Assembly: GCA_029289095.1 (NCBI GenBank)
Contig: JARFUG010000009.1
Location: forward strand, 1-64,000
Direction: 5' to 3'
DNA from: Desulfuromonadales bacterium
Lineage (GTDB): Bacteria > Desulfobacterota > Desulfuromonadia > Desulfuromonadales > JACZKF01
DNA: 64,000 bases
The number at the start of each line of letters is the position of its first letter. The first letter of the stretch is position 1. Under the pieces are notes generated by a model. That model was given only the letters and a program-made list of their open reading frames with translations. It ran no database searches and was not told the DNA's origin. This document shows, one piece after another, positions 36,079 through 63,228 of this stretch. The translations under genes were made by a program, and so were the position numbers.

Positions 36079-37358
36079 TTGCTCCTCATCCGTTCAGCGG
36101 CGTTCGCCGCTTCGACGAGAAAAGAGGTTCCTCCTTCATAGAGGACATCGTTTCTGAGCTGGCTGCCGACCTGTTCCCAGTCTGGGAATCCGCGCAGCAC
36201 CAGCCCCTTGCCGCAGGCGTGAGCCAGCCGCTCCCCATGGGCGTTGCTCACGATCAGGTCGTATTCGTTTCGGTGATCCTCGGCATCCTCCAGGTCGCCC
36301 ACGAGCACCTTTTCCGCCCTGATCCCGACCAGTTGCGGCGAATCGACGGTTGCGACGGCGACACGGACCTTCCCGCCGGCTTCAACAAGCGACGCGCACA
36401 GGCCGGCGATCTGGTCCGGCTCTCCAGCGATGAGGAAGCGCGTCTGACCAATGGAAAAATGGCAATCGAGCATGGCATCCTGCAGGCGCCTGCGCCAGCG
36501 CACGATCCCCGGATGAGGCTCCGGGATCGGCGCTTCCTCCAGGAGAATTCCGACCAGGGCGTCGGTCGCTTCGAGACCGTTCAGATGATCGAAATGATGG
36601 TGCTTCATTCCGGCGTTCTTCTCCAGCAGCGCTCGGGCGCACCTTTTCATCGACGCGCCGACGCTCAGGACGAGGAAAGCATCGCCGAGCTTTCTGATTT
36701 GCTCGACGGCAATCCCTCCGCTGCTCAGCGCACCCTGCTTCTCTCCCAGGTAGCCGTCCAGAGAGGTGGATAGATCGGGAAGGGCATGGACGTCGAATCC
36801 GAAGCGCGCGACGAATTCCTTGATCTTCTCGACTTCGATAGGCGTCAGACCGACATGCGGCAGAAGGACCACCTTTTTTTGATCGAGTTGCGTACGCTCC
36901 TCGACAAGTTGCTCGATGAGGGCGCTGACGGCCAGAGCCCATCCGCTCTCGAGCCCCCCCTCGTAGTCGGGGGTATTGACGTGGACGAGAGGGAGATGGA
37001 CCTTCGAGGCGACGCCGCGGATATCGTCCCCCTTGGTTTCGGTCAACCCTGTTGTGTGCAGTCCGATGAGCTCGGGGACGACCTTCTTCGTGATGTTCGC
37101 CACCGCCTCGACGATGCTGTAATCGCCTCCGTCGAGGATCGCAGTGATGTCGGTGACGGCGGTCGTCTGGATGGCGATCGGCTCGCTGAAGTGGCGGGTC
37201 AGAAAAACCTTGGTGAAGGAAGCGCACCCCATTGCGCCGTGCATCAGCGGCATGCAGCGGTCGATCCCCAGAAAAGCGAGGGCCGCCCCCATTGTCTGGG
37301 GGAGTTTGATCGGATTGACCTGCAGCGGTTTGGGCGATCGACGTCTCACTTCTCCCAT
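36075..37358 (-). CDS. nifN: Nitrogenase FeMo-cofactor scaffold NifN
   Basis: INPIKLPQTMGAALAFLGIDRCMPLMHGAMGCASFTKVFLTRHFSEPIAIQTTA; directly after nifE. Confidence 0.92.
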   Translation of the reverse strand: MGEVRRRSPKPLQVNPIKLPQTMGAALAFLGIDRCMPLMHGAMGCASFTKVFLTRHFSEPIAIQTTAVTDITAILDGGDYSIVEAVANITKKVVPELIGLHTTGLTETKGDDIRGVASKVHLPLVHVNTPDYEGGLESGWALAVSALIEQLVEERTQLDQKKVVLLPHVGLTPIEVEKIKEFVARFGFDVHALPDLSTSLDGYLGEKQGALSSGGIAVEQIRKLGDAFLVLSVGASMKRCARALLEKNAGMKHHHFDHLNGLEATDALVGILLEEAPIPEPHPGIVRWRRRLQDAMLDCHFSIGQTRFLIAGEPDQIAGLCASLVEAGGKVRVAVATVDSPQLVGIRAEKVLVGDLEDAEDHRNEYDLIVSNAHGERLAHACGKGLVLRGFPDWEQVGSQLRNDVLYEGGTSFLVEAANAAERMRSK

Positions 37359-38698
37359 GGCGCCCTCCTCGCAACGTTCCTGAAGACGGGGTTCTCAAGG
37401 GCGTTCCTGACATCCTCCGCCAGGTTCAGCAGCCCCCTGTAGCCGCCGTAGCTCTTCTTTTTTTCCTGATTCACGTCGATGAACGATATCCGTTTCTTGA
37501 TCGCGGTATAGAGGCTGCGTCCACCCGCCAGCAGCAGGTCGGCGCCGGTCTCGTCGATGATCCGCGCCTGCTCGGCGCCCGGATTCATCATCAGGACTCC
37601 CTTCTCCCCCAGATACTCGCGCGCCTTCTCCCGGTCGGCCTCCGTCGCCTTTCTTACCGCCGTCGCCACTACTTCGATGCCGAGATCCTGGAGCGCCGAA
37701 GCGATGGACCACGTCTTGTTGCCCCCGGTATTGAGGACCGCCTTCCTCCCTCGGAAGATCTCCCGGTATGGCGCAAGCTTCTCCTCCAGAGAGAGCTCTT
37801 CGCGTCGGATGACCGCTCTGGTCCGTTGGATGAGAGCCGCATCCCCGAGCGCCTCGGCGATGGCCAGAAGGGCGTCGCTGGTGTCCCGTTTCCCATAAAA
37901 GGAGAGTGAAATGAAGGGGATGCCGTAACGTTCCTGCATCTTTCGGGTGAGGGAGATCAGCGATTTGGCGCAGACGAGGACGTTGAGCTTTGCGCGGTGT
38001 GCGGTGCGGATATCGGCGATGCGCCCGTCGCCGCTCAGGGTCGACAGGACGCGAATCCCCACCTCTTCGAGCAATGGCGCGTACTGCCACATGTCGCCGG
38101 TGACGTTGTATTCGCCGATGAGATTGATGTCGAAATCGGTAGTGTGCTCGGGTTCCCGCGTGCCGACCAGGTGCTTCAGGACGGCCTCCCCTCCCAGGCG
38201 GCTGCCAAGGTTCTTACTGCCGACGAAGCCGGGGGCGTGGACGGGGACGACGGGAATGCCGTGTTCCGATTCGGCCAGGCGGCAGATTGCGTCGATGTCG
38301 TCGCCGATCAGCGCCGTGACGCAGGTTGCATAGACGAAGAGCGCCTGCGGCCTGTAGCGCCCGACGATATAGTCTATGGCCAGGCGCAGTTTCTCCTCCC
38401 CGCCGAAGACGACGTCACGGTTGGAGATATCGGTGGTAAATCCCATCCGGGTGAAGTCGCGTCCCGGGTGCGTCGTCCCGGTTTCCCGGGTCTCCCACGA
38501 AGCGCCGAGGCAGGTGATGGGGCCGTGCACGAGGTGAGCGGCGTCGGCATAGGGGAAAAGAGAGATCTGCGCCCCTTCGAAGGCGCACCCCCCGGTGGTG
38601 GCTCCGGGAATGGGGGCGTTGCAGGTGGACTTGCGGGCGGCGTTGTGCGTGCAGGCGCTCTCGTCGAGGAGTTCTCGAATCTTCGGCTTGGCGGACAC
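37346..38698 (-). CDS. nifE: Nitrogenase FeMo-cofactor scaffold NifE
   Basis: PGATTGGCAFEGAQISLFPYADAAHLVHGPITCLGASWETRET; VHAPGFVGSKNLGSRLGGEAVL; NVTGDMWQYAPLLEEVGIRV. Confidence 0.94.
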   Translation of the reverse strand: MSAKPKIRELLDESACTHNAARKSTCNAPIPGATTGGCAFEGAQISLFPYADAAHLVHGPITCLGASWETRETGTTHPGRDFTRMGFTTDISNRDVVFGGEEKLRLAIDYIVGRYRPQALFVYATCVTALIGDDIDAICRLAESEHGIPVVPVHAPGFVGSKNLGSRLGGEAVLKHLVGTREPEHTTDFDINLIGEYNVTGDMWQYAPLLEEVGIRVLSTLSGDGRIADIRTAHRAKLNVLVCAKSLISLTRKMQERYGIPFISLSFYGKRDTSDALLAIAEALGDAALIQRTRAVIRREELSLEEKLAPYREIFRGRKAVLNTGGNKTWSIASALQDLGIEVVATAVRKATEADREKAREYLGEKGVLMMNPGAEQARIIDETGADLLLAGGRSLYTAIKKRISFIDVNQEKKKSYGGYRGLLNLAEDVRNALENPVFRNVARRAPWEK

Positions 38699-39614: not shown

Positions 39615-42600
39615 TCATTCTTCAACAGTCGGGATCAACGACTTATTGACCGAGCGTGCCCGCCAGACGTAAAAGAGTACAGGGGTGACGACCATGACGA
39701 CCAGCAGCGAGGTCACCGCGCCGCCGACCATGGGGGCGGCGATGCGCTTCATGACGTCGGAACCTGCACCGGTGCCCCACATGATGGGAAGCAGACCGGC
39801 GATGATCGTCACCACCGTCATGACCTTGGGCCGGATGCGCTGCACCGCCCCGTACTGGATCGCCTGGTGCAGATCGCCCCGGGTGAGCATTCGCCCCTCG
39901 TCCTTCCACCTCTGGTAGGCCAGATCGAGATAGAGGAGCATGACGACCCCCGTCTCGGCCGACAGCCCCGCCAGGGCGATGAGACCGACCCACACCCCGA
40001 TCGACATGTTGTAGCCGAGCAGATACATCAGCCAGTACGCCCCGACAAGGGAGAAGGGGACGGCCAGGAAGATGATGCCGGTCTTCACCGCCGAGCGGGT
40101 GCTCACGTAAATCAGGACAAAGATGATGAGGATCGTGAGGGGGATGATCACCATCAGGCGCGCACGGGTCGCCTCGATGTACTCGTACTGCCCGCTCCAC
40201 ACAATGCTGTACCCCGGCGGCAATGTGATGTTTTCGGCTACCGCACGTCGGGCGTTCTCGACGTAGGTGCCGACGTCGATGTCGCGGATATCGACGTAGA
40301 CCCAGGCGGTGCGCCGCGCGTTCTCGCTCTTGATGCTGTCGGGGTCGTTGCGCACGTTGATCTCGACCATCTGTCCCAGCGGAATCTGCCGCCCGCCGGG
40401 GGCCGACACCAGGATGCGCTTGAGGGCCTCGGGGTCGCTGCGGAAGTCGCGCTCGTAGCGGATGTTGACCGGATAGCGCTCCAGCCCCTCCACGGTCTCG
40501 GTGACGCTCATCCCTCCGATGGCGGTCTGGATGACGTCCTGGATGTCTCCAATATTGACCCCGTAGCGCGATGCGGCCCGGCGATCGATGTCGATGTCGA
40601 GAAAGTACCCTCCGACGGCGCGCTCGGCGATGGCCGAGAGGGTCCCCGGCAGCACGCGCACCACCGCCTCGATCTCTTCACCCAAACGCGCCAGCACGTT
40701 GAGATCCTCCCCCATAACCTTGATGCCGACGGGCGTGCGGATGCCGGTGGAGAGCATGTCGATACGGGTGCGGATTGGCATCGTCCAGGCGTTGGTCAGC
40801 CCCGGAAAGTGAACCGCCGCGTTGAGCTCGTCGATGAGCTCCTCGGAGGTGATGGTGCGCTCCTCGGGCCAGATCCAGCGCCATGGATAGGAGAGCCAGG
40901 TGGGCCACTCCGAATAGAAGCGGTGGACATGGCGCGTGCGCCACTCGCTCTCGGGCTTTAGCATGATCGTCGTCTCGATCATCATCATCGGCGCCGGATC
41001 GGTGGCGGTCTCGGCGCGGCCGATCTTGCCGAAGGCGTGCTCCACCTCAGGGAACGAAGCGATGATGCGGTCGGTCTGCTGCAGCAGCTCGCGCGCCTTG
41101 GTGACCGAGACTCCCGGCAGCGTCGTCGGCATGTAGAGCAGATCCCCCTCGTAGAGTGGCGGCATAAATTCCGAGCCCATCTTGTGGATCGGCCAGGCGA
41201 TGGAGACGGTCAGCAGCAGCGCCACCAGCAGCGTCGCCTTGCGCCAGCGCAGCACGAAATCGACCACCGGCCGATAGGCGTTGATCAGGACGCGGTTGAC
41301 GGGGTTGTCCGTCTCCTTGCGCACCCGGCCCCGGATGAACCAGACCATCAACACCGGCACCAGGGTGATAGAGATGATGGAGGCCGCCGCCATGGCGTAC
41401 GTCTTGGTGAAAGCGAGAGGCTTGAAGAGGCGACCGGCCTGCTCCTGCAGGGTGAAGACCGGCGCGAAAGAGACGGTGATCACCAGCAGGGCGAAGAAGA
41501 TAGTGGGGCCGACCTCCTTGGCCGCGTCGATGATCACCTCGGTGCGGGGTCGGTCGGGCTCGCGCTCGAGGCGCTTGTGGGCGTTCTCCACCATGATGAT
41601 CGCCGAGTCGACCATGGTGCCGATGGCGATGGCGATCCCCCCAAGGCTCATGATGTTGACGTTGATCCCCTGAATCTGCATGACGATGAACGACATCAGG
41701 ATGCCGATGGGCAGGGCGAAGATGACGACGGCGGCGCTCGGCAGATGGAAGAGGAAGAGGATGATCACCAGGGCGACAACGATGCTCTCTTCGATCAGCT
41801 TTTGCTGCAGGTTGGCCACCGCGCGGTCGATGAGTCCCGAGCGGTCATAGACAGTGACGATCTCGACCCCCTCGGGGAGCCCGGGCCTGAGTTCGTCGAG
41901 CTTGCGCTCCACGCGCTCGATGACGGCGCGGGCGTTCTCGCCGAAGCGCATGACGATGATGCCGCCGACGACCTCCCCTTCCCCATCGAGTTCGGCCACG
42001 CCGCGGCGCATGTCGGGACCGAGGGTCACCCGCGCCACGTCCCGCACCCGCACCGGCGTCCCCTCGGGTGTCGCCATGATGACGATGTCGGCCACATCCT
42101 CCACCGAGGCGATGTAGCCGCCGGTGGTGCGCACCATGAACTCGGTCTCGGCCATCTCAACGGCGCCGCCGCCGACGTCGAGGTTGGCGCGCTTGATCGC
42201 CATCTCGAGCATGTTGATGGAGATGTCGTAGGCGCGCAGCCGATTCGGATCGACGACCACCTGGTACTGCTTGACGAAGCCGCCTAGGCTCGCCACCTCG
42301 GAAACCCCTTCGAGCGCCGCCAGCTCGTAGCGCAGGAACCAGTCCTGGATGGAGCGAAGCTGCTGCAGATCGTGCCGGTCGCTCTGCAGAACGTACTGGT
42401 AGACCCAGCCGACCCCCGTGGCGTCGGGGCCGAGTGTGGGGGTCACTCCGGCGGGCAGGCGCCCCGCGGCGTAGTTGAGGTATTCGAGGACTCGGGAGCG
42501 CGCCCAGTAGATGTCGGTGCCGTCCTCGAAAATGATGTAGACGAAGGAATAGCCGAAGAAGGAGTACCCGCGCACGTCCCTGGCGCCGGGAACCGCCAGC

Positions 42601-42818
42601 ATCTGCGTCGTCAGCGGATAAGTGACCTGATCCTCCACCACCTGAGGCGCCTGCCCCGGATACTCGGTGAAGATGATAACCTGCACGTCCGAGAGGTCGG
42701 GGATGGCGTCGATCGGAATATTGCGCAGCGCCCAGATCCCTCCGACGATGATGAAGACCGTCGCCAGAACGACCATGAAGCGGTTGCGGCTCGACCATTC
42801 AATGATGTTTTCAAGCAT
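39615..42818 (-). CDS. cusA: Heavy-metal efflux RND transporter, CusA/CzcA family
   Basis: MLENIIEWSSRNRFMVVLATVFIIVGGIWALRNIPIDAIPDLSDVQVIIFTEYPGQAPQVVEDQVTYPLTT; 1067 aa. Confidence 0.93.
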   Translation of the reverse strand: MLENIIEWSSRNRFMVVLATVFIIVGGIWALRNIPIDAIPDLSDVQVIIFTEYPGQAPQVVEDQVTYPLTTQMLAVPGARDVRGYSFFGYSFVYIIFEDGTDIYWARSRVLEYLNYAAGRLPAGVTPTLGPDATGVGWVYQYVLQSDRHDLQQLRSIQDWFLRYELAALEGVSEVASLGGFVKQYQVVVDPNRLRAYDISINMLEMAIKRANLDVGGGAVEMAETEFMVRTTGGYIASVEDVADIVIMATPEGTPVRVRDVARVTLGPDMRRGVAELDGEGEVVGGIIVMRFGENARAVIERVERKLDELRPGLPEGVEIVTVYDRSGLIDRAVANLQQKLIEESIVVALVIILFLFHLPSAAVVIFALPIGILMSFIVMQIQGINVNIMSLGGIAIAIGTMVDSAIIMVENAHKRLEREPDRPRTEVIIDAAKEVGPTIFFALLVITVSFAPVFTLQEQAGRLFKPLAFTKTYAMAAASIISITLVPVLMVWFIRGRVRKETDNPVNRVLINAYRPVVDFVLRWRKATLLVALLLTVSIAWPIHKMGSEFMPPLYEGDLLYMPTTLPGVSVTKARELLQQTDRIIASFPEVEHAFGKIGRAETATDPAPMMMIETTIMLKPESEWRTRHVHRFYSEWPTWLSYPWRWIWPEERTITSEELIDELNAAVHFPGLTNAWTMPIRTRIDMLSTGIRTPVGIKVMGEDLNVLARLGEEIEAVVRVLPGTLSAIAERAVGGYFLDIDIDRRAASRYGVNIGDIQDVIQTAIGGMSVTETVEGLERYPVNIRYERDFRSDPEALKRILVSAPGGRQIPLGQMVEINVRNDPDSIKSENARRTAWVYVDIRDIDVGTYVENARRAVAENITLPPGYSIVWSGQYEYIEATRARLMVIIPLTILIIFVLIYVSTRSAVKTGIIFLAVPFSLVGAYWLMYLLGYNMSIGVWVGLIALAGLSAETGVVMLLYLDLAYQRWKDEGRMLTRGDLHQAIQYGAVQRIRPKVMTVVTIIAGLLPIMWGTGAGSDVMKRIAAPMVGGAVTSLLVVMVVTPVLFYVWRARSVNKSLIPTVEE

Positions 42819-42835
42819 GGATTAAACCCTAAAAG

Positions 42836-42910
42836 CGTGAGGGGTGAGGCGTGAGGAGTGAGGGGTAAATGTTTTTACCTCCCAACTCCTCACTCCTCAC
42901 TCCTCACCGG
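42836..42910. repeat. Degenerate short-word repeat (GTGAGG/AGTGAGG) with inverse arm (CTCCTCACTCCTCAC)
   Basis: gtgaggggtgaggcgtgaggagtgagggg...cctcccaactcctcactcctcactcctcacc between cusA and cusB. Confidence 0.75.
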
Positions 42911-42911
42911 T

Positions 42912-44342
42912 TCAATTGAACAGATCGTCCAGATCGTCGTGGTCATCGTGGACCTGCGGAGGTTCGTGCACGCGCGGCTGCAGCATCTTCTGCACCGCCT
43001 CCTGCAGGCGGCTCTCGGAGTCGAGCATGAACTGGGCGGAGGTGACGACGATCTCCCCCTCGCGCACTCCGGAGACGACTTCGATCCAGCCGTCCTCGCT
43101 CTGCAGCCCGACCTGGATGGAGCGAGGCTCGAAGCGCCCATCGCCGAGGTGGACGAAGACGCGCTGTCCCGTCCCCGAGTAGAGGACGGCGTTGACCGGC
43201 ACCGCGACAACCCCTTCCTTGGCAGCGGCTTCAAGTCGGACGTTGACGAACATCTCGGGGCGCAACTCCCGGCGGGGGTTGTCGAGCTCGAGGCGGACCC
43301 GTTGGGTGCGCGTCATACCCTCCAGATAGGGATAGATGAAGTCGACGCGGGCCGGGAGCGACACCCCGGGGGCGTAGGGGAGCTCGACCGTCGCCCGCTG
43401 CCCCTCGCGAAGCCAGGGGAGATCGAACTCGTAGATCTCGGCGATCACCCAGACCCGGGAGAGGTCGGCCAGCCGGAAGAGCTCCATCCCTCCCATCACC
43501 GCCATCCCTTCGAACACCATCCTTTCCGTCACGACCCCGCTCGCCGGAGCGTGGAGAGTCATCGTCTTCTGCACCTCTCCGGTGCGTTCGATGCGGGCGA
43601 TCTGCTCCTCGGAGATGTCCCAGTACCGAAGTCGGGTGCGCGCCGCCTCCATGAGGCGGTCGGCCCCGGCGGCGAAACCGTTGCGGCTCTGTCCGCTGAG
43701 ATTGTTGCGGTTGCGCACCGCCAGCAAAAACTCCTGCTGGGCCGCGACGAGCTCGGGGCTGTAGATTTCCAGAAGCGGCTCGCCCCGGCGCACCTGCCGT
43801 CCCGTCTCGCGAACGTGCAGCTTCTCGATCCACCCCTCGATCTTGCTGTTGACCGAATACTGGCGCGCCTCGTCGTAGTCGATGCGCCCCACAGTGCGCA
43901 CCGTACGGGCGATGTCGCGCACCTGCGCGATCTCGGTGCGCAGCCCCAAATTCTGGATCGTCACCGGATCGATGACGATCTGCCCCGGCGCGGCGCCGTC
44001 AACGTAGACCGGCACGAGATCGTGTCCCATGTAGTCCTGCCCCGGCTCGTCGCGCACATAGGTCGGATCCATCGGCGAGACCCAGTGGCGGATCCGCCTC
44101 TCGGCGGGGGCGCTCGGAGCGTCGGCGCGCATGGGGGTGAGACGCATCCCGCAGATCGGGCACAACCCGGGCTCGTCCTGGATGATGAAGGGGTGCATGC
44201 CGCAGGTGTACTGCACCTTGGCCTCATCGCCGGCGACATGGTCGTGCCCGGCATGGCGTCCCTGCCAGAAGACGACACCCCCCAGGACGAGCACCGCCAG
44301 TGCGAGAAGGACAATAACGATTTTGGTCCTGCCACTATTCAT
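42912..44342 (-). CDS. cusB: Efflux RND periplasmic adaptor CusB with heavy-metal-binding domain
   Basis: VQYTCGMHPFIIQDEPGLCPICGMRL; adaptor core VRRGEPLLEIYSPELVAAQQEFLLA. Confidence 0.92.
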   Translation of the reverse strand: MNSGRTKIVIVLLALAVLVLGGVVFWQGRHAGHDHVAGDEAKVQYTCGMHPFIIQDEPGLCPICGMRLTPMRADAPSAPAERRIRHWVSPMDPTYVRDEPGQDYMGHDLVPVYVDGAAPGQIVIDPVTIQNLGLRTEIAQVRDIARTVRTVGRIDYDEARQYSVNSKIEGWIEKLHVRETGRQVRRGEPLLEIYSPELVAAQQEFLLAVRNRNNLSGQSRNGFAAGADRLMEAARTRLRYWDISEEQIARIERTGEVQKTMTLHAPASGVVTERMVFEGMAVMGGMELFRLADLSRVWVIAEIYEFDLPWLREGQRATVELPYAPGVSLPARVDFIYPYLEGMTRTQRVRLELDNPRRELRPEMFVNVRLEAAAKEGVVAVPVNAVLYSGTGQRVFVHLGDGRFEPRSIQVGLQSEDGWIEVVSGVREGEIVVTSAQFMLDSESRLQEAVQKMLQPRVHEPPQVHDDHDDLDDLFN

Positions 44343-44472
44343 TGCCTCGATCCAATCTATTGAAATGGTTTTTCAGGTCGTCAGGTTTTTTAACTGCTCA
44401 CCAAGGGTCTCGGGGCGCCCTGACAGAGGCCCGGATAGCGCCAGTCAGGTCCCCCGCCCCCTCATTCTTCCC

Positions 44473-45774
44473 CTAAAACCCACCCACCAGCGCCTCGAGC
44501 TGCGCCACGGCCATCTCGTGCTCGGCGACGGCCTCGTGAAAGGCCTGCTCGTAGTTGAAGAGAGTCATCTGGCTGTCGAGGAGGGTCATGAAATCGGCCC
44601 GTCCCACCTGGTAGGCGGAGGTCGCCGATTCCAGTGAAAGCTCGGCCTGCGGGAGGATCGCGTCGCGGTAAAGCTCGACGCGCCGGCTCCCCTCCTCGAT
44701 GCGGGCGAGAAGCTCGGCGACGCCGGCGCGGATGGCATTGCGCGTCTCGTTGAGCTCGGCTCCGCCCATGCGGATGTCGGAGCCGGCTTCGGCGACCATG
44801 GCGTGCCGCCTCTGGCGCTGTATCGGCAGATTGAAGCTCAGACCGAGGGAATACATGTCGTCCCCCATCTCCCCCATCGTCGGCTCGCGCTGCATGTACT
44901 CGATCGAGACGGTGAAGTCGGGGAAGCGCTCCCGTTGCGCCAGGCGCTGCATCGCCTCGCCGCGGGAGATCTGGGCGCGAAGGCTACGGAGGAGGGGGCG
45001 GTTGGCCTGGGCGTGCTCTTCAAGGTCGGCCGCGTCGAGCGGCAGCGCGCTCAGCTCGATGGAGGCGGGGATATCGACGGGGGTGTCGGCGGGGCGGTAC
45101 GCGAGGGCGTTGAGCGCCGCCAGTGTCGCCGTTCGCTGGCGCTGCAGCATAATCTGCATGTCGATCATCTTAGAGCGCTCCAGGTGCGCCTTGAAGACGT
45201 CCTGCTGGATGCCGCCCCCCACCCCGTACATCGTCTCGGTCAGCAAGATGATGTCGTCGATAGCCGCCAGGTTGTCCTCGAGCGTTTCAAGAGAGCGTTC
45301 GATGTAATAGAGCTGGAACCACGTCTCGCGCACCATCCGCGCAAGCTCGAGACGCCGCTCCTCGTGGATCCATCGGTACGACTCGGCCTCCAGCGACGCC
45401 GCCTCGCGCTCCAGGGCTCGCTTGCCGGGATAGGGGAGCATCTGGCTCACCCCGATCACCTTCGAGGTCATCGGGTCACGACGGAAATTGAGAGGATCGC
45501 GAATCACGACGTTCTGAATCCCGATCATCACCATCGGATCTTCCAGAGTGCCGGCGCCTCGCGCCCGGGCAACGAAAGCCTGCCAACGCGCCTCTGAGGC
45601 TTCGAGCTCGGGGTTGGTCGCCAGAGCCTGGGACACCATCTCGTCGAGGGTCGCGCCCCCCACCCTTCTTTCGATGGGTGAAGAATTCGCCGCAGGCGCA
45701 TCGAGGGCAAGGGCAGACGCTGCACTCAGAAAGAGGGAGAGGATAAGGAAGGCTGCACGAATGGATGCAATCAT
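44473..45774 (-). CDS. TolC/CusC-like outer-membrane efflux protein
   Basis: Signal peptide; ISRGEAMQRLAQRERFPDFTVSIEYMQREP; AELSLESATSAYQVGRADFMTLLDSQMTLFNYE. Confidence 0.88.
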   Translation of the reverse strand: MIASIRAAFLILSLFLSAASALALDAPAANSSPIERRVGGATLDEMVSQALATNPELEASEARWQAFVARARGAGTLEDPMVMIGIQNVVIRDPLNFRRDPMTSKVIGVSQMLPYPGKRALEREAASLEAESYRWIHEERRLELARMVRETWFQLYYIERSLETLEDNLAAIDDIILLTETMYGVGGGIQQDVFKAHLERSKMIDMQIMLQRQRTATLAALNALAYRPADTPVDIPASIELSALPLDAADLEEHAQANRPLLRSLRAQISRGEAMQRLAQRERFPDFTVSIEYMQREPTMGEMGDDMYSLGLSFNLPIQRQRRHAMVAEAGSDIRMGGAELNETRNAIRAGVAELLARIEEGSRRVELYRDAILPQAELSLESATSAYQVGRADFMTLLDSQMTLFNYEQAFHEAVAEHEMAVAQLEALVGGF

Positions 45775-46105
45775 TGTCTGCTCCTGGAGAAGGAAGTTTG
45801 ACAAAGTGTACCAACTTCCGTCGCCGAAGAATCGGATACAGGACAAGATTAATTCACGCACTGTGCCAAAAGCGATCTTTCTTATTTTTCCTGGATCTGG
45901 AGAAGTTATCGTCCCGAAAAGGATCATTTTGTAGAATATTGCACAACGGGCGGAAGAATATTCTCCAGCGGCGGAAGGGATAGAACACTTGGAAAGTGGC
46001 AGATCCGCACCGTGGGGTTTGTGTTATGATGGTTGTATGGGCCGTGAAGCTCCGGCTCACCAGCAAACCCTTACTGAAGCAGGAATGGAAAGTGAGTAGC
46101 GACCG

Positions 46106-51536: not shown

Positions 51537-51586
51537 TTTCTGTCCGGAGATTCCTGATGGAAACAACTTGAGCAATGGAGAACAGC

Positions 51587-53782
51587 ATGAGTGTTTCTCG
51601 CAGAACCTTTTTGAAAGGGACAGTCGCCGGCGTGGCGGGACTCGGCGTGGTTCCGGTCTTTCGCCACATCGCTCTGACGCAGGATAAGATCCCAGGCGAC
51701 GGGCCTGTGCGCTATGTCAATTCCAGTTGCGCCATCTGCACCAACAAGTGCGTATTTCGCGGACAGGTGGTCAACGGCGTCATCCGGCGCCTTGAACCCG
51801 AGCCAGACTTCCCCAAATCCAGGGGGATGATGTGCGCGCGGGGAAATGCCGGAGCGACGACACCCTACGACCCCGATCGGCTCAAATTCCCCTTGATCCG
51901 CACCGGAAAAAGGGGCGAAGGAAAGTGGAAGAAGGTCAGTTGGGATGAGGCCTTCGCCTACATCGCCGAAAAGACGAACACCCTGGTGAAAGAAGAGGGA
52001 GGCAACCGGGCCACCATCGCTTTCGCCTCGTCGGAGGGGACGTACCAGGAGCACTACTGGAACCAGTTCCGCGAGGTCTTCGGCTCACCGAACTCCCTGC
52101 GACACCCGACCCTGTGCCTGAGCTCCAACATCCGGGGCTTCCAGTCGGTTTTCGGCACCTATCCCAACGCGGACGTCGCCAATTCGCGCTACATCATCCT
52201 GGCGGGCGCCGACCGGGCCGAAGCGTTCATGACCCCCGACACCATCGACATGTTCAACAAGAGCATGCCGGGGCGCAAGCTGATCTATCTCGATCCCCGG
52301 TTCACCAAAACGGCCGCCAAGGCCGACAAGTGGTTCCCCATCAAGCCGGGGACCGACATGGCCTTCGCGCTGGCGATGCTCAACGTCATCATCGGTGAGA
52401 ATCTCTACGACAAAGCCTTCGTCCGGGAGCACTGCACGGGATTCGAGGAGTTGGCCGCACACGTCACGCAGTACACCCCCGAGTGGGCGCAAGGCGAGAC
52501 GGGGATCGAGGCCTCCGAGATCCGCACCGTCGCGCGGGAGTTCGCCCAGACGCCTGGAGCCGTCTTCTATCCCGGGCGCCGCTCCTCGTGGCTCAGAGAC
52601 GATGTACAGACCCGCCGCGCCATCGCCATGGTCAATGCGGTGACGGGGAGCTTCGATCGTCCAGGGGGCCTGATCCCCAACATCTCCATCCCGATGAAGG
52701 GCTACTTCTACGAGCCTGCATGGTACAGCAATCCCCGGCCGCGCCTCGAGGAAGAGGACGTGATGTTCCTCAACCCCCGCGACGGCTCCTGGATCGCCTG
52801 GCGCGACCGCGCCATCAAGGGCGATCCGTACCGCATCAGAGGGATGTTCATCAACAAGCAGAATGTCATCGACTCGGTCCCCGACCGCAACAAGACCTTC
52901 GAGTTGTTCGACAAGCTTGATCTGATCGTCACCATAGACACCATGATGAGCGACACCGCCTGGTATTCGGACGTGGTCCTTCCCGAGTCGAACTACCTTG
53001 AGCGCTTCGACCCCCCGTACGGGTTGGGCGGCATCGAGCCGGTGATCGTTCTGCGCCAGCCCCTTATCGCTCCGATGTACGACACGCGGCCCTGCTTCGA
53101 CATCGTCAAGGGCCTGGCAGCGCACTTCGAGGACGAGGACGGCGATACGCTCGACACCTACTTCAGCGGCACGGTGGAAGAACATGCCGAGATGTTCGTC
53201 TCGGGTCTGCCCGGCGCGATGGAGATGCTGCGCGAAAAAGGCTTCTATACGGACGGACGCAGCGCCGTAATGGGGGAATACCGCAGCGGCAAAAAGACGG
53301 TGGCCACCCCGAGCAAAAAGATCGAACTGTACAGCGAGGATTTCGCCGGGCGCGGTCTCGACCCGATGCCGGTCTACCGGCGGCCTGAAGAACCCGGCAA
53401 GGGGCAGTTTCGCTTTTTGGTGGGACGTCACGCCATTCACACCCACTCGATGACGGCGGCGTTCCCCGAACTCAACTGGCACATGCCGGAAAACAGCCTC
53501 TGGATCAATGCCGCCAAGGCCCGAGAGATGGGAATACGCTCCGGCGATCTGGTCGTGGCGCAGAACCGCTCGGGCGCCGAAGTGCGCATCAAGGCCCAGG
53601 TGACTGAGGGGATCCGGCCCGATTGCGTTTACTTCGCCCACGGATTCGGGAGCCTGTCGCAGGGCAAGCCGCTCGTCTACGGCAAGGGGGCGACCCAGGC
53701 GGCGATCCTCGAGTCCCACTTCGAGCCCGTTTCAGGCAATGCCTGCATGCACGAAACCTTTGTCGAAATCAGGAAGGCTTAA
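51587..53782 (+). CDS. Molybdopterin oxidoreductase catalytic subunit (Psr/Phs-like CISM), Tat signal
   Basis: SVSRRTFLKGTVAGVAGLG; NSSCAICTNKCVFRGQVVNGVIRRLEPEPDFPKSRGMMCARGNAG Fe-S/MGD motif. Confidence 0.93.
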   Translation: MSVSRRTFLKGTVAGVAGLGVVPVFRHIALTQDKIPGDGPVRYVNSSCAICTNKCVFRGQVVNGVIRRLEPEPDFPKSRGMMCARGNAGATTPYDPDRLKFPLIRTGKRGEGKWKKVSWDEAFAYIAEKTNTLVKEEGGNRATIAFASSEGTYQEHYWNQFREVFGSPNSLRHPTLCLSSNIRGFQSVFGTYPNADVANSRYIILAGADRAEAFMTPDTIDMFNKSMPGRKLIYLDPRFTKTAAKADKWFPIKPGTDMAFALAMLNVIIGENLYDKAFVREHCTGFEELAAHVTQYTPEWAQGETGIEASEIRTVAREFAQTPGAVFYPGRRSSWLRDDVQTRRAIAMVNAVTGSFDRPGGLIPNISIPMKGYFYEPAWYSNPRPRLEEEDVMFLNPRDGSWIAWRDRAIKGDPYRIRGMFINKQNVIDSVPDRNKTFELFDKLDLIVTIDTMMSDTAWYSDVVLPESNYLERFDPPYGLGGIEPVIVLRQPLIAPMYDTRPCFDIVKGLAAHFEDEDGDTLDTYFSGTVEEHAEMFVSGLPGAMEMLREKGFYTDGRSAVMGEYRSGKKTVATPSKKIELYSEDFAGRGLDPMPVYRRPEEPGKGQFRFLVGRHAIHTHSMTAAFPELNWHMPENSLWINAAKAREMGIRSGDLVVAQNRSGAEVRIKAQVTEGIRPDCVYFAHGFGSLSQGKPLVYGKGATQAAILESHFEPVSGNACMHETFVEIRKA

Positions 53783-53785
53783 GCC

Positions 53786-54352
53786 ATGGCAAACGAAAAA
53801 AAGAAACGATGGGTCATGGTCATCGATCCATCCCGGTGCATCGACTGCAAGGCATGCGATGTGGCATGCAAGCGCGAAAACAGTCTGGTGCTCGAGGGGC
53901 GCGACAGCTACCGGAACTGGATCTCCTCCAAGGGGATCGAGGGGACCTACCCGCGGCTGAAGCAGAAGTTCGAGCCGAGCCAGTGCCAGCACTGCTCCAA
54001 CACCCCCTGCGAGCATGTCTGCCCGACCCGCGCCACCTACAAAACGCGCGACGGCATTGTTCGGGTCGACTACAAACGCTGCATCCTGTGCAAGACCTGC
54101 ATCACCGCCTGCCCGTACGATGCGCGCTTCGAACAGCACCAGTTCAAGGCCATCGACAAATGCACCTTCTGCGAGCATCGCATCTACGAAGGGAAGCTTC
54201 CGGCCTGCGTCGACACCTGTCCGACGAAGGTGCGGGTCTTCGGTGATCTGAATGATCCGCAGAGCGAGGTCTCGAAGCTTCTGGCGGCGCGCCACTGGCG
54301 CGTCCTCAAGCCCGAGGTCGGCACTCGCCCCAATCTTTACTACATCGCCTGA
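53786..54352 (+). CDS. 4Fe-4S electron-transfer subunit (PsrB/PhsB-like)
   Basis: CIDCKACDVACKREN, CQHCSNTPCEHVCPTRAT, CILCKTCITACPYDAR, CTFCEHRI...ACVDTCPTKV: four ferredoxin-type clusters. Confidence 0.94.
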   Translation: MANEKKKRWVMVIDPSRCIDCKACDVACKRENSLVLEGRDSYRNWISSKGIEGTYPRLKQKFEPSQCQHCSNTPCEHVCPTRATYKTRDGIVRVDYKRCILCKTCITACPYDARFEQHQFKAIDKCTFCEHRIYEGKLPACVDTCPTKVRVFGDLNDPQSEVSKLLAARHWRVLKPEVGTRPNLYYIA

Positions 54353-54360
54353 AGGAGCGG

Positions 54361-55563
54361 ATGATGAATCACACAGCCTTCAAGGAAAGAATCGTGTTCA
54401 CGCCCGGCGGGAAATTGTGGGGGGTGCTCGCCGGCTTTCTCCTCATCCTCGGTCTCGTGGGTCTTTTCAATTATCTCATTCACGGCGTCGAGGTCTACAA
54501 CGTCCACCGGCAGGTCCCCTGGGGGATCCAGATTTCCACGTATGTCTTCTTCGTCGTTTCCTCAACCGGACTGTGCCTCGTTTCTTCCCTCGGTCATGTC
54601 TTCGGGATCAAATCGTTCGAAGTGATCGGCAAACGCGCCATCGCCATGGCGATCTTCACCATTCTGGCCGGATTTGCGGTCATCGCCACGGAAATCGGGC
54701 ACCCGCTGCGGATGCTCGTCTACAACATCATCTCCCCCAACCTGCACGCTGCCATCTGGTGGATGGGGACGCTGTACGGCATCTATCTTGTGTGCATCCT
54801 CATCGAGTTCTGGTTCATGATGCGCGGCGATCACCGTTTCGCCGGCTACCTGGGGCTTGCCGGCTTTATCGCAGGGGTCGCGGCGCACAGCAACCTCGGT
54901 GCGGTCTTCGGATTTCTCGACGCCCGCCCCTGGTGGCACGGCCCCTTCCTGCCGATCTACTTCATCCTTTCGGCCGCCGTCACCGGCTGCGCCATCGTCC
55001 TGCTCCTCTTCGCCCATCGGTACTACAGGGAGAAGATGCCCCGAAACGTCGAAGAGACGATGCACGCCATCGGCAAGCTCTTCTGTCTGCTGCTGGGCAT
55101 CCTGATCTTCTTCGAGATCTGGAAGGTGCTGACCTCCATTTACGGCGCCCCTCCCGGAAAATACGAAGCGATGATGGCGTTGGTCGCAGGCCCGCTGAGC
55201 ACAAGCTTCTGGCTGTTCGAGGTCCTTCTCGGGATGCTGATCCCCTTTGCCCTGATCCTGTTCACCAAGGCCAGGAGCTTCAGCATCAATGTTCTGGCCG
55301 CCGCGAGCGCCATCGTGGGGATCTTTTTCATGCGCTACAACCTGGTCGTGGCGGGCCAGCTCGTTCCGATGCGCCCCGACGTGCATCGCGTCGGTCCGGA
55401 CGGACTGTTGAGCTATTTTCCTTCTCCGACTGAAATCGGCATCGTGCTCGGAGGAATCGGCTTATGTCTGCTCATGTACATCGCCGCCAACCTCCTTTTC
55501 AATCTCGACGACGAAGAGCACCCTTCAGAGGTCGAGTCTCTCCAAACGAATAGTTGTTCTTAA
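54361..55563 (+). CDS. nrfD: NrfD/PsrC-like membrane quinone-interacting subunit
   Basis: 400 aa multi-TM; GIQISTYVFFVVSSTGLCLVSSLGHVFG; follows A and B subunits. Confidence 0.92.
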   Translation: MMNHTAFKERIVFTPGGKLWGVLAGFLLILGLVGLFNYLIHGVEVYNVHRQVPWGIQISTYVFFVVSSTGLCLVSSLGHVFGIKSFEVIGKRAIAMAIFTILAGFAVIATEIGHPLRMLVYNIISPNLHAAIWWMGTLYGIYLVCILIEFWFMMRGDHRFAGYLGLAGFIAGVAAHSNLGAVFGFLDARPWWHGPFLPIYFILSAAVTGCAIVLLLFAHRYYREKMPRNVEETMHAIGKLFCLLLGILIFFEIWKVLTSIYGAPPGKYEAMMALVAGPLSTSFWLFEVLLGMLIPFALILFTKARSFSINVLAAASAIVGIFFMRYNLVVAGQLVPMRPDVHRVGPDGLLSYFPSPTEIGIVLGGIGLCLLMYIAANLLFNLDDEEHPSEVESLQTNSCS

Positions 55564-55624
55564 GCGGGAAGTCGCCATGGTGGCGAGGTTCGTCCTGTCA
55601 CGCTCAAACATGCAAGGAGGCATT

Positions 55625-56833
55625 ATGAAGATGCGATTCTTCACCGGTGTTCTTGTCACATGCTCACTACTCTTTGTTTCCGGATGTGCAACGCCCCAGA
55701 AGGCCCCTCCCTCAGCGGCTCAGGCGCCCGCTCCCGTCGTGGCCGAGGCTCCCAAACAGGTCCCCCAGGACCCGGCCCTGCGCATCACCACGGCCGAGGT
55801 CAAGGCCCTGTTCGCCCAGGAGTTCGGCGACAAAACCCTCATCAAGGAAACGCTCGAGAAGAACACGCGTTTCCTGCTGGTCGACGTTCGCCCCAAAGTG
55901 CGCTATGAAGAAGGACACGTCCCCGGCGCCATCAGCATCCCCACCCCGATGCTGGAGGCCAACCTCGACAAGCTTCCCAAGGACCGTCTCGTCATCTTCT
56001 ACTGCGGAGGGCTGGCCTGCCACCTGAGCCCCGAAGCGGCGGAGATCGCCAAGAAGCATGGCTTCACCAACATCAAGGTCTGGTACGAAGGGGAGCCCCA
56101 GTGGGTGAAGGACGGCGGATATCTCATCACCGAAACTCCCCACCTCAAGCGCATGTTCGACGCCGGCGACAAGGAAGTCTTCGCCCTCATCGACTCGCGC
56201 CCCCCGCTTGTGCACCGCAAGTCGTTCATTCCCGGCTCCGTCTCGATCCCCAAGGTCCTCTTCGAGCAGAGAAAGGGTCTTCTCCCGGCCGACAAGAACA
56301 CCCTGCTCGTCTTCTATTGCGGCGGGCATCACTGCGAGCTGAGCCACGAGGGCGCCGTCGAGGCAATCAAAATGGGGTATACCAGGGTGCGGGTCTATTC
56401 GGCCGGCGTCCCCGAATGGAGCAAGCAGAACTACGCCCTCTGGGGGAATGAGGCAAGCGGTATCGTCGAGGCCCCCAAAACGGCCGCCCCGGGCGCTCTT
56501 CCCGAAGTGATCTCCCCGGAAGAGTTCAAGAAAGCGGTCGCCTCCGGACAGGTGGTTCTCATCGACGTGCGCAGCGAGCGTGAATTTGCGGCCGGACACC
56601 TCCCCGGCGCCGTCTGCGTCCCGGACGGTGAGTTCTACAAAGACCTCGCCGCGACCATCGCAAAGCTCCCCACCGACAAGCGGGTGATCCTCTACTGCGC
56701 GACAGGGGCGCGCTCCGCCGGGGCCTTCTTCGCCGTCACCGACGAGCCGGGAGCCTACAAGAATCCCCACGGATTCCAGTACCTGAACAAGGCAATTTCC
56801 ATCGCCGCGGACGGTAGCTTCACCATCGAATAA
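55625..56833 (+). CDS. Triple-rhodanese-domain lipoprotein
   Basis: Lipobox LLFVSGC; domain loops IFYCGGLACHLS, VFYCGGHHCELS, ILYCATGARSAGA. Confidence 0.92.
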   Translation: MKMRFFTGVLVTCSLLFVSGCATPQKAPPSAAQAPAPVVAEAPKQVPQDPALRITTAEVKALFAQEFGDKTLIKETLEKNTRFLLVDVRPKVRYEEGHVPGAISIPTPMLEANLDKLPKDRLVIFYCGGLACHLSPEAAEIAKKHGFTNIKVWYEGEPQWVKDGGYLITETPHLKRMFDAGDKEVFALIDSRPPLVHRKSFIPGSVSIPKVLFEQRKGLLPADKNTLLVFYCGGHHCELSHEGAVEAIKMGYTRVRVYSAGVPEWSKQNYALWGNEASGIVEAPKTAAPGALPEVISPEEFKKAVASGQVVLIDVRSEREFAAGHLPGAVCVPDGEFYKDLAATIAKLPTDKRVILYCATGARSAGAFFAVTDEPGAYKNPHGFQYLNKAISIAADGSFTIE

Positions 56834-59145: not shown

Positions 59146-60045
59146 TCACTCCGCCAGCATCGTCCGGGGCAGTGCAGGGGATTCGATTCGTGCAGGAGTG
59201 CCGTTTTCGGGGAATCTCCAGGTCGGTCGATGGAAGACGAAAGGCATTGCCAGGAGCCTGCCGAGGGTGAGTTCGTCCGGATTCCGGAAAGCGGGGACAC
59301 CGATGGTGATCTCGTCCTGGGCGATATTGAGCCTCACTGTTCCGTGCAGGTAGTCGGGCCAGGAAAAGATCGTCGCCCAGTTGGAAGCGGTCTCTTCGGG
59401 AACGATGGAGTGATGGATGCCGTGCATGCGGGGGGTGACGATCAGGCGACAGAGGCGGCGCTCAAAAGCGGCCGGAAGGCGCACGTTGGAATGGTGGAAG
59501 AGTATCGCCAAGAGCGTGAGGGTCTGCCAGATCGACAGGGCAAGAGGCGAAATTCCAAAAAGACGCACCTGAGCGGCCCGCCAGGGGACCGAGAGAATCA
59601 TTTCGGCGGCGTGGAAACGCAGGGCAGTCGATGCGTCGAGATCCGGATCGGCGTGGTGGACGCGGTGGAAACGCCAGAGAAACGGAACCCTATGGGTCAG
59701 GTAGTGCCAGAGATACAGGGTATAGTCGAGCAGCATGATGGAGAGAAAAAGTTCGGCTCCCGCCGGGAGCCGAACGGAAGGTAACAACCCTGTGCGATTT
59801 CGCACCGCCGCGGCTGTAAGTCTGGACGTCACTGGCTTCTCCGTCAGAGCGACGGCCGTCGCCGTCATCGCCGACATGGAGAGATTGCGCAGGTCGTGGC
59901 GGAGTTTCTTCTCGACCGTGCTGCGCAGCGGGCGCCGGATTTCCGACAGGACGAGTACGCCCAGGGCGCCGAAGATCAGGATTCCGTTGAGCCAGGTCGG
60001 AAGCTCGCCGGACAGGGTTTGGCGCTTTTTAGATTTCCATAACAT
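59146..60045 (-). CDS. Sterol desaturase/fatty-acid hydroxylase family protein
   Basis: LWHYLTHRVPFLWRFHRVHHADPDLD; LFHHSNVRLP; RMHGIHHS histidine boxes. Confidence 0.92.
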   Translation of the reverse strand: MLWKSKKRQTLSGELPTWLNGILIFGALGVLVLSEIRRPLRSTVEKKLRHDLRNLSMSAMTATAVALTEKPVTSRLTAAAVRNRTGLLPSVRLPAGAELFLSIMLLDYTLYLWHYLTHRVPFLWRFHRVHHADPDLDASTALRFHAAEMILSVPWRAAQVRLFGISPLALSIWQTLTLLAILFHHSNVRLPAAFERRLCRLIVTPRMHGIHHSIVPEETASNWATIFSWPDYLHGTVRLNIAQDEITIGVPAFRNPDELTLGRLLAMPFVFHRPTWRFPENGTPARIESPALPRTMLAE

Positions 60046-60072
60046 TGTGCCCTCCTTCCTCGCGCAACTGCG

Positions 60073-60594
60073 CTACCGCAGTGCCCTCGCCATGCCCCTG
60101 TGGACCATTTCAGAAGCGGCCGTCCAGGCGATGTGATTCCCCATCTCCTTGACGCTGGGCTGCCATGGTATCCGGCGCAGACCAGGTGAGATCCCCAACT
60201 GCGGCGCGATCATCCCGTCGCAAGCGAAAAAAAAGGGGATCGCGAAGGGAACCCCTGCAAGGCGAGATAGTTGGGGGAATTTTCTTCGCAGCGCGGCATG
60301 GATCAGCCCCCATCCGACGCCATAAGCCAGTCCGAAGAGGATTTTGGCGCGCTTCTCCTCTTTTCGGCTGAGCTTCTTTCCAGTGAGCTTGCGCGCGAAA
60401 TAGGGACCAGCCAGTTCGTGGGCGCTCCCCTTGCGCAAACGCCGGTCAGCCCTTTTCTGGCGTGGGCTGACGAAACGGTCCAGAAATTTGTCCGCCCGAC
60501 CTGTGACGGCTCCGGCAACCAGCCCGGCGGCGATCCCCGTCAGGAGGAAGTGAGGCGCCTTCCTTCCACTTTCCTGCAATGTTTTTCTGCGCAT
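60073..60594 (-). CDS. YagU/DUF1440-like membrane protein
   Basis: LTGIAAGLVAGAVTGRADKFLDRFVSPRQ; GLAYGVGWGLIHAALRR. Confidence 0.6.
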   Translation of the reverse strand: MRRKTLQESGRKAPHFLLTGIAAGLVAGAVTGRADKFLDRFVSPRQKRADRRLRKGSAHELAGPYFARKLTGKKLSRKEEKRAKILFGLAYGVGWGLIHAALRRKFPQLSRLAGVPFAIPFFFACDGMIAPQLGISPGLRRIPWQPSVKEMGNHIAWTAASEMVHRGMARALR

Positions 60595-60757
60595 TTTCTC
60601 CTCCACGGTTGCGATCTCACGATGTGGAACTCTGAACACTTTAGAAAGAGAGGTCGTGGTGTCAAGAGTCCGAGGAGCCTCCTTGATTTTCGGTCATTCT
60701 GACCGAAAATGGGGATTGACAGACAGACGCCCACCCGCCGCATCCGTAAACGTGCCA

Positions 60758-62041
60758 ATGAAGATCACCAGAAGAGCCTTTCTGCAGGGAAGCGGAGCCG
60801 TCGTTGCTGCCGGGCTTTTGAGCGCCATGGGGGGCACTGACAGGGAGGAAACAGCCATGTCCCCACCGGCCGGGCTCTCTGGAGAAGAGGCGTGGGAAAC
60901 GATCCGGGGACATTTTGATCTCGACCCGCAGTACATCCACCTGTCGACATTGCTCCTGGCCTCCAACCCGAGCCAGGTGCGCGAGGCCATCGCCCGATAC
61001 CGCCAACTTCTCGACGCCAATCCGGCACTCACCGTCGAGGAAAAGCGCCTGGAGTTGGAACATGGGGTGCGTCGCACCGCAGCGGCGTACCTGGGGGTCG
61101 ATTTCGCGGGAGTCGCGCTGACCGACAGCACCACCATGGGCCTTGGGCTGGTATACAACGGCTTGCAGGTCAGGGCCGAGCAGGAACTTCTGACGACCGA
61201 TCAGGATTATTATTCAACCCATCAGGCTCTGCGTTACAAGCGGCGGGACTCCGGCGCCACATTGCGGGAGATTCCTCTTTTCGAAAAGGCATCGAGCGTT
61301 TCGGAAGAAGAGATCGTCGAGACCCTGATCAAGGCTGTCCGCCCCGAAACCCGGCTGCTCGCCCTCACATGGGTCCATTCCAAAACGGGTCTGAAACTCC
61401 CCGTCAGACCCCTGGCTGACGAACTGAGGAGGATCAACGCCGGTCGCGACGAACAGGACAAGGTCCTGCTTGGAATCGACGGGGTGCACGGGCTGGGAGT
61501 AGAGAACTTCGTCATGGAAGATCTCGGGTGCGACTTTTTCATGGCCGGCGCCCACAAATGGCTTTTCGGCCCACGAGGAACGGGAATCGTCTGGGGCAAG
61601 CCCGGAATCCGCAGCATGGTCAATACCCTGATCCCCACATTCACTCCTGACGGCACCTGGGGAGGGCGCATGACTCCGGGGGGCTTCAAACCCTTCGAGC
61701 ATCAGTGGGCTCTTGCCGAAGCCTTCGAGTTTCACCGGCAGATCGGAAAGGCGCATATTGCCGAACGCACGCATGCTCTGAGCCGACAGTGCAAGGAGGG
61801 GCTTGCGAAAATGAGGCACGTCACCTTGCATACTCCCATGGCGGAAGCCCTTTCATCCGGCATCGTCTGCTTCGATGTCGACGGTCACACACCCCAGCAG
61901 GTGGTCGATCGCCTCGGCGAGCGCGGCATCGTCGCGAGCGTCACTCCCTACAGCCCCTCCCATGCCCGTCTGACACCTTCGATCATCAACACCCCCGCCG
62001 AAATCGATGCAACATTGGCCGCCATCCGGGAGATGGGGTAA
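60758..62041 (+). CDS. Tat-exported aminotransferase class V (isopenicillin-N epimerase/kynureninase-like fold)
   Basis: MKITRRAFLQGSGAVVAAGLLSAMGG Tat signal; PLP-Lys motif FFMAGAHKWLFGPRGTGIVW. Confidence 0.88.
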   Translation: MKITRRAFLQGSGAVVAAGLLSAMGGTDREETAMSPPAGLSGEEAWETIRGHFDLDPQYIHLSTLLLASNPSQVREAIARYRQLLDANPALTVEEKRLELEHGVRRTAAAYLGVDFAGVALTDSTTMGLGLVYNGLQVRAEQELLTTDQDYYSTHQALRYKRRDSGATLREIPLFEKASSVSEEEIVETLIKAVRPETRLLALTWVHSKTGLKLPVRPLADELRRINAGRDEQDKVLLGIDGVHGLGVENFVMEDLGCDFFMAGAHKWLFGPRGTGIVWGKPGIRSMVNTLIPTFTPDGTWGGRMTPGGFKPFEHQWALAEAFEFHRQIGKAHIAERTHALSRQCKEGLAKMRHVTLHTPMAEALSSGIVCFDVDGHTPQQVVDRLGERGIVASVTPYSPSHARLTPSIINTPAEIDATLAAIREMG

Positions 62042-62058
62042 CCTCCATCGTGCCGCCG

Positions 62059-63228
62059 TCAGAGCAGATGTTCCTCGGTTTCCTGCCGGTGCTTCTGCAG
62101 ATAGCGCATGAAGGGGGTTCCACCGGTGCCGACCGCGGACGGGTTGGCCGCATTCTTCTGGCTCTGCTCCTGAATGTAGCGGGCGGCGTACTTGACGTGC
62201 ATGGTGCGAAATTCGTAGAGGAGGCGCACGCAGCGGTTGTAGAGACGGCGCAGTTCAGGCTCTTGCGGGGCGCATCGTGCGACCGTCTCGCGCACCCGCG
62301 ACGCCGATTCGAGCACCTCGATGAAGGTGCGGTGTTCGGGGGGCATGTAGTCGCGCATCTCCTGCAGATAGGCGCGCAGAGGGTCGTCCCGATGTGTGAT
62401 CCCCAGAAAAGCGTCGAGCGCTGGGACAATGGAGCTCTGGGCGCCCGTCTCGCCACGGAACCTCTGGGGACGCCCTCCGTAGTCGGCCACTCCCTCGTAA
62501 CGCATCCCTTCCGGTAGGGAGGGGTGATCCTTCCACCCGTGTATATAGGGGCGCACGCGATGAAAGTAGATATATGGATCGCACCTTTGCGGCATCCGTT
62601 CCAGAGTCTTGACCATCGCTTCAAGCCCCCGGACCACGATCTCGAGTCCTCTCGCCAGTTCCTCCGCATCTGCGCGTTCGGCGGCCTGACACGCCGGGAA
62701 AAAAGCGGCGACAGCCTGCGAAGCCCGTGCCTCGATGTCGACGTGGACGAGAACGAACCATTCCTCGTCGAGACCGCCTAGAAAATTCTGAGCCAGGGCA
62801 ATATTCCCCAGGGAGACGGGCCCCGCGGGATCGAGGCGCCGCCAGTTGTGCAGGGCGTATGACGCGTAGGAAAGAACCGGAGGGCGTCCCAGGCGACGGG
62901 CCACCGCATGCCAGGGGACGGCGATGCGCGCCGGCAGAGACGCCGCCGGGGGGTTCTTCCCCCAGACGTAGGCATGCCCGAGAAAGGAAAGGATCACCAT
63001 GGCCCGCTCCAACTCGCGGCTCCCCTCCAGGAGGTCGGCGGGAAAGGGCGCGAGCTTCTCGATCGTCGAGCGAAGACGATCGCTCAGCAGGAGCTTCGGC
63101 AGATCGGCAGCTTTCTCCTCCCAGGGATCGAAAGGCGCCGAAAGGCGCAGCAGCGGGTCCTCGGCAGGCAGAAAACCTTTCCCGGGGGCGAGGGCACAGG
63201 TCGGATCTGATATGAATCGTTTTTCCAT
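62059..63228 (-). CDS. Indoleamine 2,3-dioxygenase-like heme protein
   Basis: RPPVLSYASYALHNWRRLDP; FHRVRPYIHGWKDHPSLPEGMRYEGV; RGETGAQSSIVPALDAFLGI; RDYMPPEHRTFIEVLE; FRTMHVKYAARYI; GTGGTPFMRYLQKHRQETEEHLL. Confidence 0.92.
   Translation of the reverse strand: MEKRFISDPTCALAPGKGFLPAEDPLLRLSAPFDPWEEKAADLPKLLLSDRLRSTIEKLAPFPADLLEGSRELERAMVILSFLGHAYVWGKNPPAASLPARIAVPWHAVARRLGRPPVLSYASYALHNWRRLDPAGPVSLGNIALAQNFLGGLDEEWFVLVHVDIEARASQAVAAFFPACQAAERADAEELARGLEIVVRGLEAMVKTLERMPQRCDPYIYFHRVRPYIHGWKDHPSLPEGMRYEGVADYGGRPQRFRGETGAQSSIVPALDAFLGITHRDDPLRAYLQEMRDYMPPEHRTFIEVLESASRVRETVARCAPQEPELRRLYNRCVRLLYEFRTMHVKYAARYIQEQSQKNAANPSAVGTGGTPFMRYLQKHRQETEEHLL

Follow-up and report, generated by a model that had tools for sequence, protein, structure and literature searches.

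An intact indoleamine 2,3-dioxygenase-family gene with a non-human distal pocket, convergent with a PvdN-like gene in a Desulfuromonadales bacterium

The window analysed here, the whole stretch of 64,000 nucleotides from contig JARFUG010000009.1 (positions 1 to 64,000, forward strand; assembly GCA_029289095.1) of a Desulfuromonadales bacterium, carries two intact genes in convergent orientation whose stop codons lie 17 bp apart: one for an indoleamine 2,3-dioxygenase (IDO)-family protein and one for a PvdN-like PLP enzyme (Table 1). A sequence-only reading had described an IDO-like gene convergent with a PLP gene of Tat type, and open reading frames and profile matches agree with it. The IDO motifs quoted in that reading fall without exception in a single open reading frame with an ATG start, which is preceded a short way upstream by GGAG; furthermore, a TGGTATAAT stretch was spotted by eye about 40 bases upstream of the start, which is absent from the promoter-scan list. 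Besides the IDO gene, DUF1440-like and fatty-acid-hydroxylase-family genes flank the PvdN-like gene. O2 chemistry beside anaerobic respiration, likewise remarked on earlier, holds for the window, as anaerobic respiratory genes are present at 51575-56833. There, the plus strand encodes a Tat-type molybdopterin oxidoreductase, a DsrO/TtrB/NrfC-like iron-sulfur protein, NrfD, and a three-domain rhodanese protein, likely a sulfur-compound reductase operon. Elsewhere, the minus strand carries genes for a cytochrome c552 of the nitrite-reductase family (25363-27003) and a nitrogenase component 1-type protein (37346-38698), as well as a set (39615-45927) comprising a metal-efflux-type RND pump, a CusB-like adaptor, and, third in the same direction, a gene at 44473-45927 with the look of one for an outer-membrane component. 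A phage relation of the locus yielded no match.

Table 1. Positions of the two genes and of the codons and regions discussed in the text
Feature	Position	Strand	Basis or conservation
IDO-family haem oxygenase gene, 389 aa	62059..63228	-	PF01231; human IDO1/2 in PDB; predicted fold
H344 codon, proximal haem ligand (human H346)	62197..62199	-	invariant in 83/83 bacterial rows
E260-T261-G262 codons (human G262-S263-A264)	62443..62451	-	E in 82/83, T and G in 83/83 rows
R226 codon (human R231, carboxylate binding)	62551..62553	-	invariant in alignment
H162 codon, distal pocket (human S167)	62743..62745	-	His in 83/83 rows; Thr in canonical Streptomyces group
PvdN-like PLP enzyme gene, 427 aa	60758..62041	+	NCBIfam PvdN 422 bits; PDB 5i90 E=2e-97; alignment
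N-terminal Tat signal region (KITRRAFLQGSG...)	60758..60823	+	Pfam and NCBIfam TAT models; TatC in genome
K267 codon, PLP lysine (HKW motif)	61556..61558	+	invariant with PvdN (alignment)

Most work on IDO concerns the mammalian immune enzyme. Judged from sequence and predicted fold, the minus-strand protein certainly belongs to the same family: a Pfam profile search matched it to PF01231 over its full length (residues 15-386, 350.7 bits against a cut-off of 26, E=1.3e-104), and in a PDB sequence search human IDO2 and IDO1 matched along its length (E=3e-64 and 5e-54, respectively). The 50 best PDB matches of a structure model built from a 29-sequence alignment (pLDDT 88, pTM 0.89) were all human IDO1 or IDO2 (TM ~0.9, rmsd ~2 Å), and neither TDO nor PrnB was among these 50. 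The full-length profile match and the model thus bear out the earlier IDO call, and so does the proposed check of the haem-ligand histidine, since the proximal His is kept as H344. R226 occupies the position of human Arg231, which binds the substrate carboxylate (PMC12921851), and the C-terminal GTGGT loop (residues 367-371) is kept as well, being invariant or nearly so across the bacterial rows. T261 was considered as an equivalent of the substrate-binding Thr of TDO and dropped, as the TDO motif GTGGS instead resembles this C-terminal loop. TDO, MarE, and PrnB are haem-dependent aromatic oxygenases of the histidine-ligated haem superfamily to which the IDO belongs too, and the F-x-x-x-H of the IDO distal helix matches F51/H55 of MarE (PMC11904535).

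With human IDO1 and IDO2 and the canonical bacterial group (here Streptomyces loci L109-L114; published members come from Gemmatimonas aurantiaca and Streptomyces scabiei, according to PMC4217691), the protein shares the full-length match, the fold, the proximal His, the carboxylate Arg, and the GTGGT loop. However, identity to them is 34-38 %, and the distal pocket is of another kind. Where the canonical fast branch has S or T167, F226, and G262-S263-A264, the protein carries H162, Y221 (Tyr in 83/83 bacterial rows), and E260-T261-G262; Y124 furthermore replaces C129 of human IDO1. Both classes occur in Streptomyces genomes, namely T/F/GGSAAQ, which is also the pattern of human IDO2, and H/Y/GETGAQ. 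They are separated in a 63-row tree too: the human rows cluster with the GSA-type Streptomyces rows in a group of their own (support 100/99), whereas the protein under study does not group with the mammalian IDOs and falls in a 51-row group (support only 85/92, drawn open) that includes Nitrospira, Bacteroidia, cyanobacteria, Chloroflexota, Alphaproteobacteria, and others. The motif does not coincide fully with the group, as ETG also occurs in two loci (L088 and L122) outside the 51 rows. Haloarchaeal IDOs fall elsewhere in the tree and have His at position 162, one of them also Tyr at 221.

PMC4217691 ascribes a useful rate of tryptophan oxidation only to the branch that unites mammals and fungi with G. 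aurantiaca and S. scabiei, and reports very slow reactions with tryptophan for the IDOs of Erythrobacter litoralis and Neptuniibacter caesariensis. We infer that the latter two fall with the 51-row group, because this is where a Sphingobium protein and further Pseudomonadota relatives of GQTG type are placed; the Pseudomonadota relatives show 45-51 % identity to the protein studied here, keep H and Y, and have GQTG where it has GETG.

Within the host's order, 3 of 136 genomes had an IDO match, and so did 3 of 395 genomes drawn from the phylum. A broader scan, in which each species was represented by one genome, confirmed 131 relatives, and more than half of the best 80 of these 131 were titled Nitrospira or its relatives. 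The H/Y/ETG-pocket branch comprises many Nitrospira and is scattered over at least 10 phyla, including mostly anaerobic lineages. In Nitrospira (L027, L079, and other loci) IDO relatives are very common, and none of the genomes tested had a kynureninase above cut-off. The host genome (completeness 100, contamination 1.4) gave no match to TDO and none to kynureninase, and 31 of 41 IDO-bearing genomes were without a kynureninase above cut-off, an absence that is uncertain where genomes are incomplete, as several are. Among the ten with kynureninase, eight also exceeded the TDO cut-off, though a few of these matches may only be TDO-like, since some span just part of the profile; in Streptomyces and Latescibacterota genomes the TDO match lies close beside kynureninase. 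IDO as a replacement of TDO in kynurenine genomes is therefore not supported. These eight genomes, with an IDO of the kind studied here together with TDO-family and kynureninase matches, also run contrary to a review stating that TDO and IDO are mutually exclusive in bacteria (PMC4191572), and they argue for a distinct role of this IDO branch. As far as sequence comparison goes, an IDO branch with a nearly unchanging, non-human pocket is common among bacteria and has no tie to kynureninase. A different situation is seen on haloarchaeal plasmids (L121, L123), where IDO lies beside kynureninase (kynU) and an alpha/beta hydrolase, likely an archaeal kynurenine gene set starting with IDO.

The plus-strand protein, which matches Aminotran_5 of Pfam (E=1.8e-30), had been linked to kynureninase by fold. 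This link gave way to another: the nearest solved structures are two PvdN entries (5i90, and a second with E=3e-95), far ahead of cysteine desulfurases, and the kynureninase model TIGR01814 is absent both from its NCBIfam matches at E<=0.001 and from the genome, which rules out a kynureninase-like reading. It resembles PvdN of Pseudomonas, an enzyme of pyoverdine tailoring, in 41 % identity over its length, the Tat signal, and the PLP lysine with its surrounding blocks. However, its score against the PvdN equivalog NF051467 stays below the cut-off of 650 bits, which a true PvdN exceeds with 755, and its flanks are devoid of the pyoverdine genes pvdM, pvdO, and pvdP. Tat signal, PLP lysine, and full-length similarity place it in a broader group of PvdN-like exported enzymes, which thereby gains a member that does not come from a pseudomonad. 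The twin-arginine signal noticed before is present as TRRAFLQGSG at the N-terminus of the frame that opens with ATG at 60758, scoring above the cut-off of the NCBIfam TAT model (21.7 against 16.7) and just below that of Pfam (22.0 against 22.7), and TatC was found in the host genome. Tat export had been called odd for a PLP enzyme; in fact, PvdN, its closest relative, and PtaA cross the inner membrane by this route with PLP bound (PMC6206403), and PMC6085387 treats PvdN as an established substrate of Tat. PvdN is also thought to use O2 (PMC7497351).

Both proteins are new members of already known families, IDO and PvdN-like. We consider it rather probable that they are unrelated neighbours, the IDO being an indole amino-acid oxygenase outside the kynurenine pathway and the PLP enzyme a Tat-exported PvdN-like one. 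The former would act as a cytoplasmic haem-dependent oxygenase, most likely binding an indole-bearing amino acid, tryptophan or a close derivative, over ferrous haem, and would put oxygen from O2 into the indole ring to yield an N-formylkynurenine-like or mono-oxygenated product. H344 would hold the haem, the amino-acid part of the substrate would be held by R226 together with the GTGGT loop, and H162 and Y221 would line the distal pocket. After export via Tat, the PvdN-like enzyme would act on an amino acid or a peptide in the periplasm, presumably in a decarboxylating, O2-using reaction of PvdN type. Since its branch, as traced by sequence, shows no link with the kynurenine pathway, the IDO probably does not serve to break down tryptophan in bulk. 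We know of no activity for any nameable member of this branch. A more tentative proposal, which we would place clearly short of an even chance, is that the haem oxygenases of the H/Y/ETG-pocket branch are a type of their own that acts on something else than free tryptophan and has its role beyond the kynurenine pathway. The branch is a clear target for assays, and the present locus provides an intact IDO in a genome with anaerobic respiratory genes.

All catalytic ligands are kept, and the IDO might hence be expected to be an ordinary tryptophan degrader, the N-formylkynurenine being hydrolysed and then excreted or taken by an unrecognised enzyme. Its pocket would allow for this. Crystals of the human S167H mutant containing tryptophan and cyanide (6cxu, 6cxv) indicate that a distal His tolerates the substrate, and H162 and Y221 do not exclude tryptophan oxidation, because the haloarchaeal IDOs adjoining kynureninase carry His at position 162. 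However, with no kynureninase found in the host genome, with a branch whose distribution does not mirror that of kynureninase and overlaps with that of TDO, and with the tested bacterial enzymes outside the canonical branch being very slow (PMC4217691), we regard this explanation as unlikely.

The protein could instead be a haem-based binder of O2 or another ligand without oxygenase turnover, like the IDO-like myoglobin of abalone. Such an IDO-derived myoglobin exists (PMC4191572), and slow bacterial IDOs are known (PMC4217691), but this role is made very improbable by the invariance of the elements that hold the amino-acid substrate, R226 and the GTGGT loop.

For the two genes together, the preferred reading of unrelated neighbours is consistent with what surrounds their relatives. 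No PvdN-like gene turned up around some 100 further IDO loci (1.18 Mb in total, with varying flank lengths) or in the order's two remaining genomes with an IDO, and where the phylum draw did yield one close relative of the PvdN-like protein (52 %, L089), the genome had no IDO match. We therefore take them to be separate genes of known families that became convergent by chance, and their neighbourhood looks accidental.

Within 4.1 kb (59146-63228), three O2-using enzyme families come together, namely the fatty-acid-hydroxylase family, PvdN-like, and IDO, and the genes from 59.1 to 63.8 kb have a third-position G+C of 0.68-0.75, compared with 0.79-0.89 for those measured elsewhere in the window, which could hint at a common origin. 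An oxygen-response patch, in which the three enzymes jointly use or remove O2 on exposure, nevertheless has very little probability: the genes do not form one operon, the grouping was found nowhere else, amino-acid-consuming enzymes make poor O2 scavengers, and the G+C difference is small. Least probable of all is the joint tryptophan or indole-derivative pathway suggested earlier, with IDO and PLP enzyme acting in sequence, for although the genes are adjacent, the PLP fold is related to that of kynureninase, and both families use O2 (PMC7497351), the genes converge, the pair recurs in no other genome examined, the products are expected in different compartments, and the nearest relative of the PLP protein is PvdN.

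Beyond this locus, a conserved partner gene for the IDO branch was sought and discarded, as neighbour families recur from locus to locus almost only within lineages (Nitrospira, Bacteroidia, cyanobacteria). In cyanobacteria (L024, L053, L060, L071), for instance, IDO adjoins 4-hydroxyphenylpyruvate dioxygenase, HmgA-like, and acyl-CoA-ligase-type genes in a cluster resembling those of tyrosine catabolism, and the first two of these neighbours suggest an involvement of the IDO branch in aromatic amino-acid metabolism.
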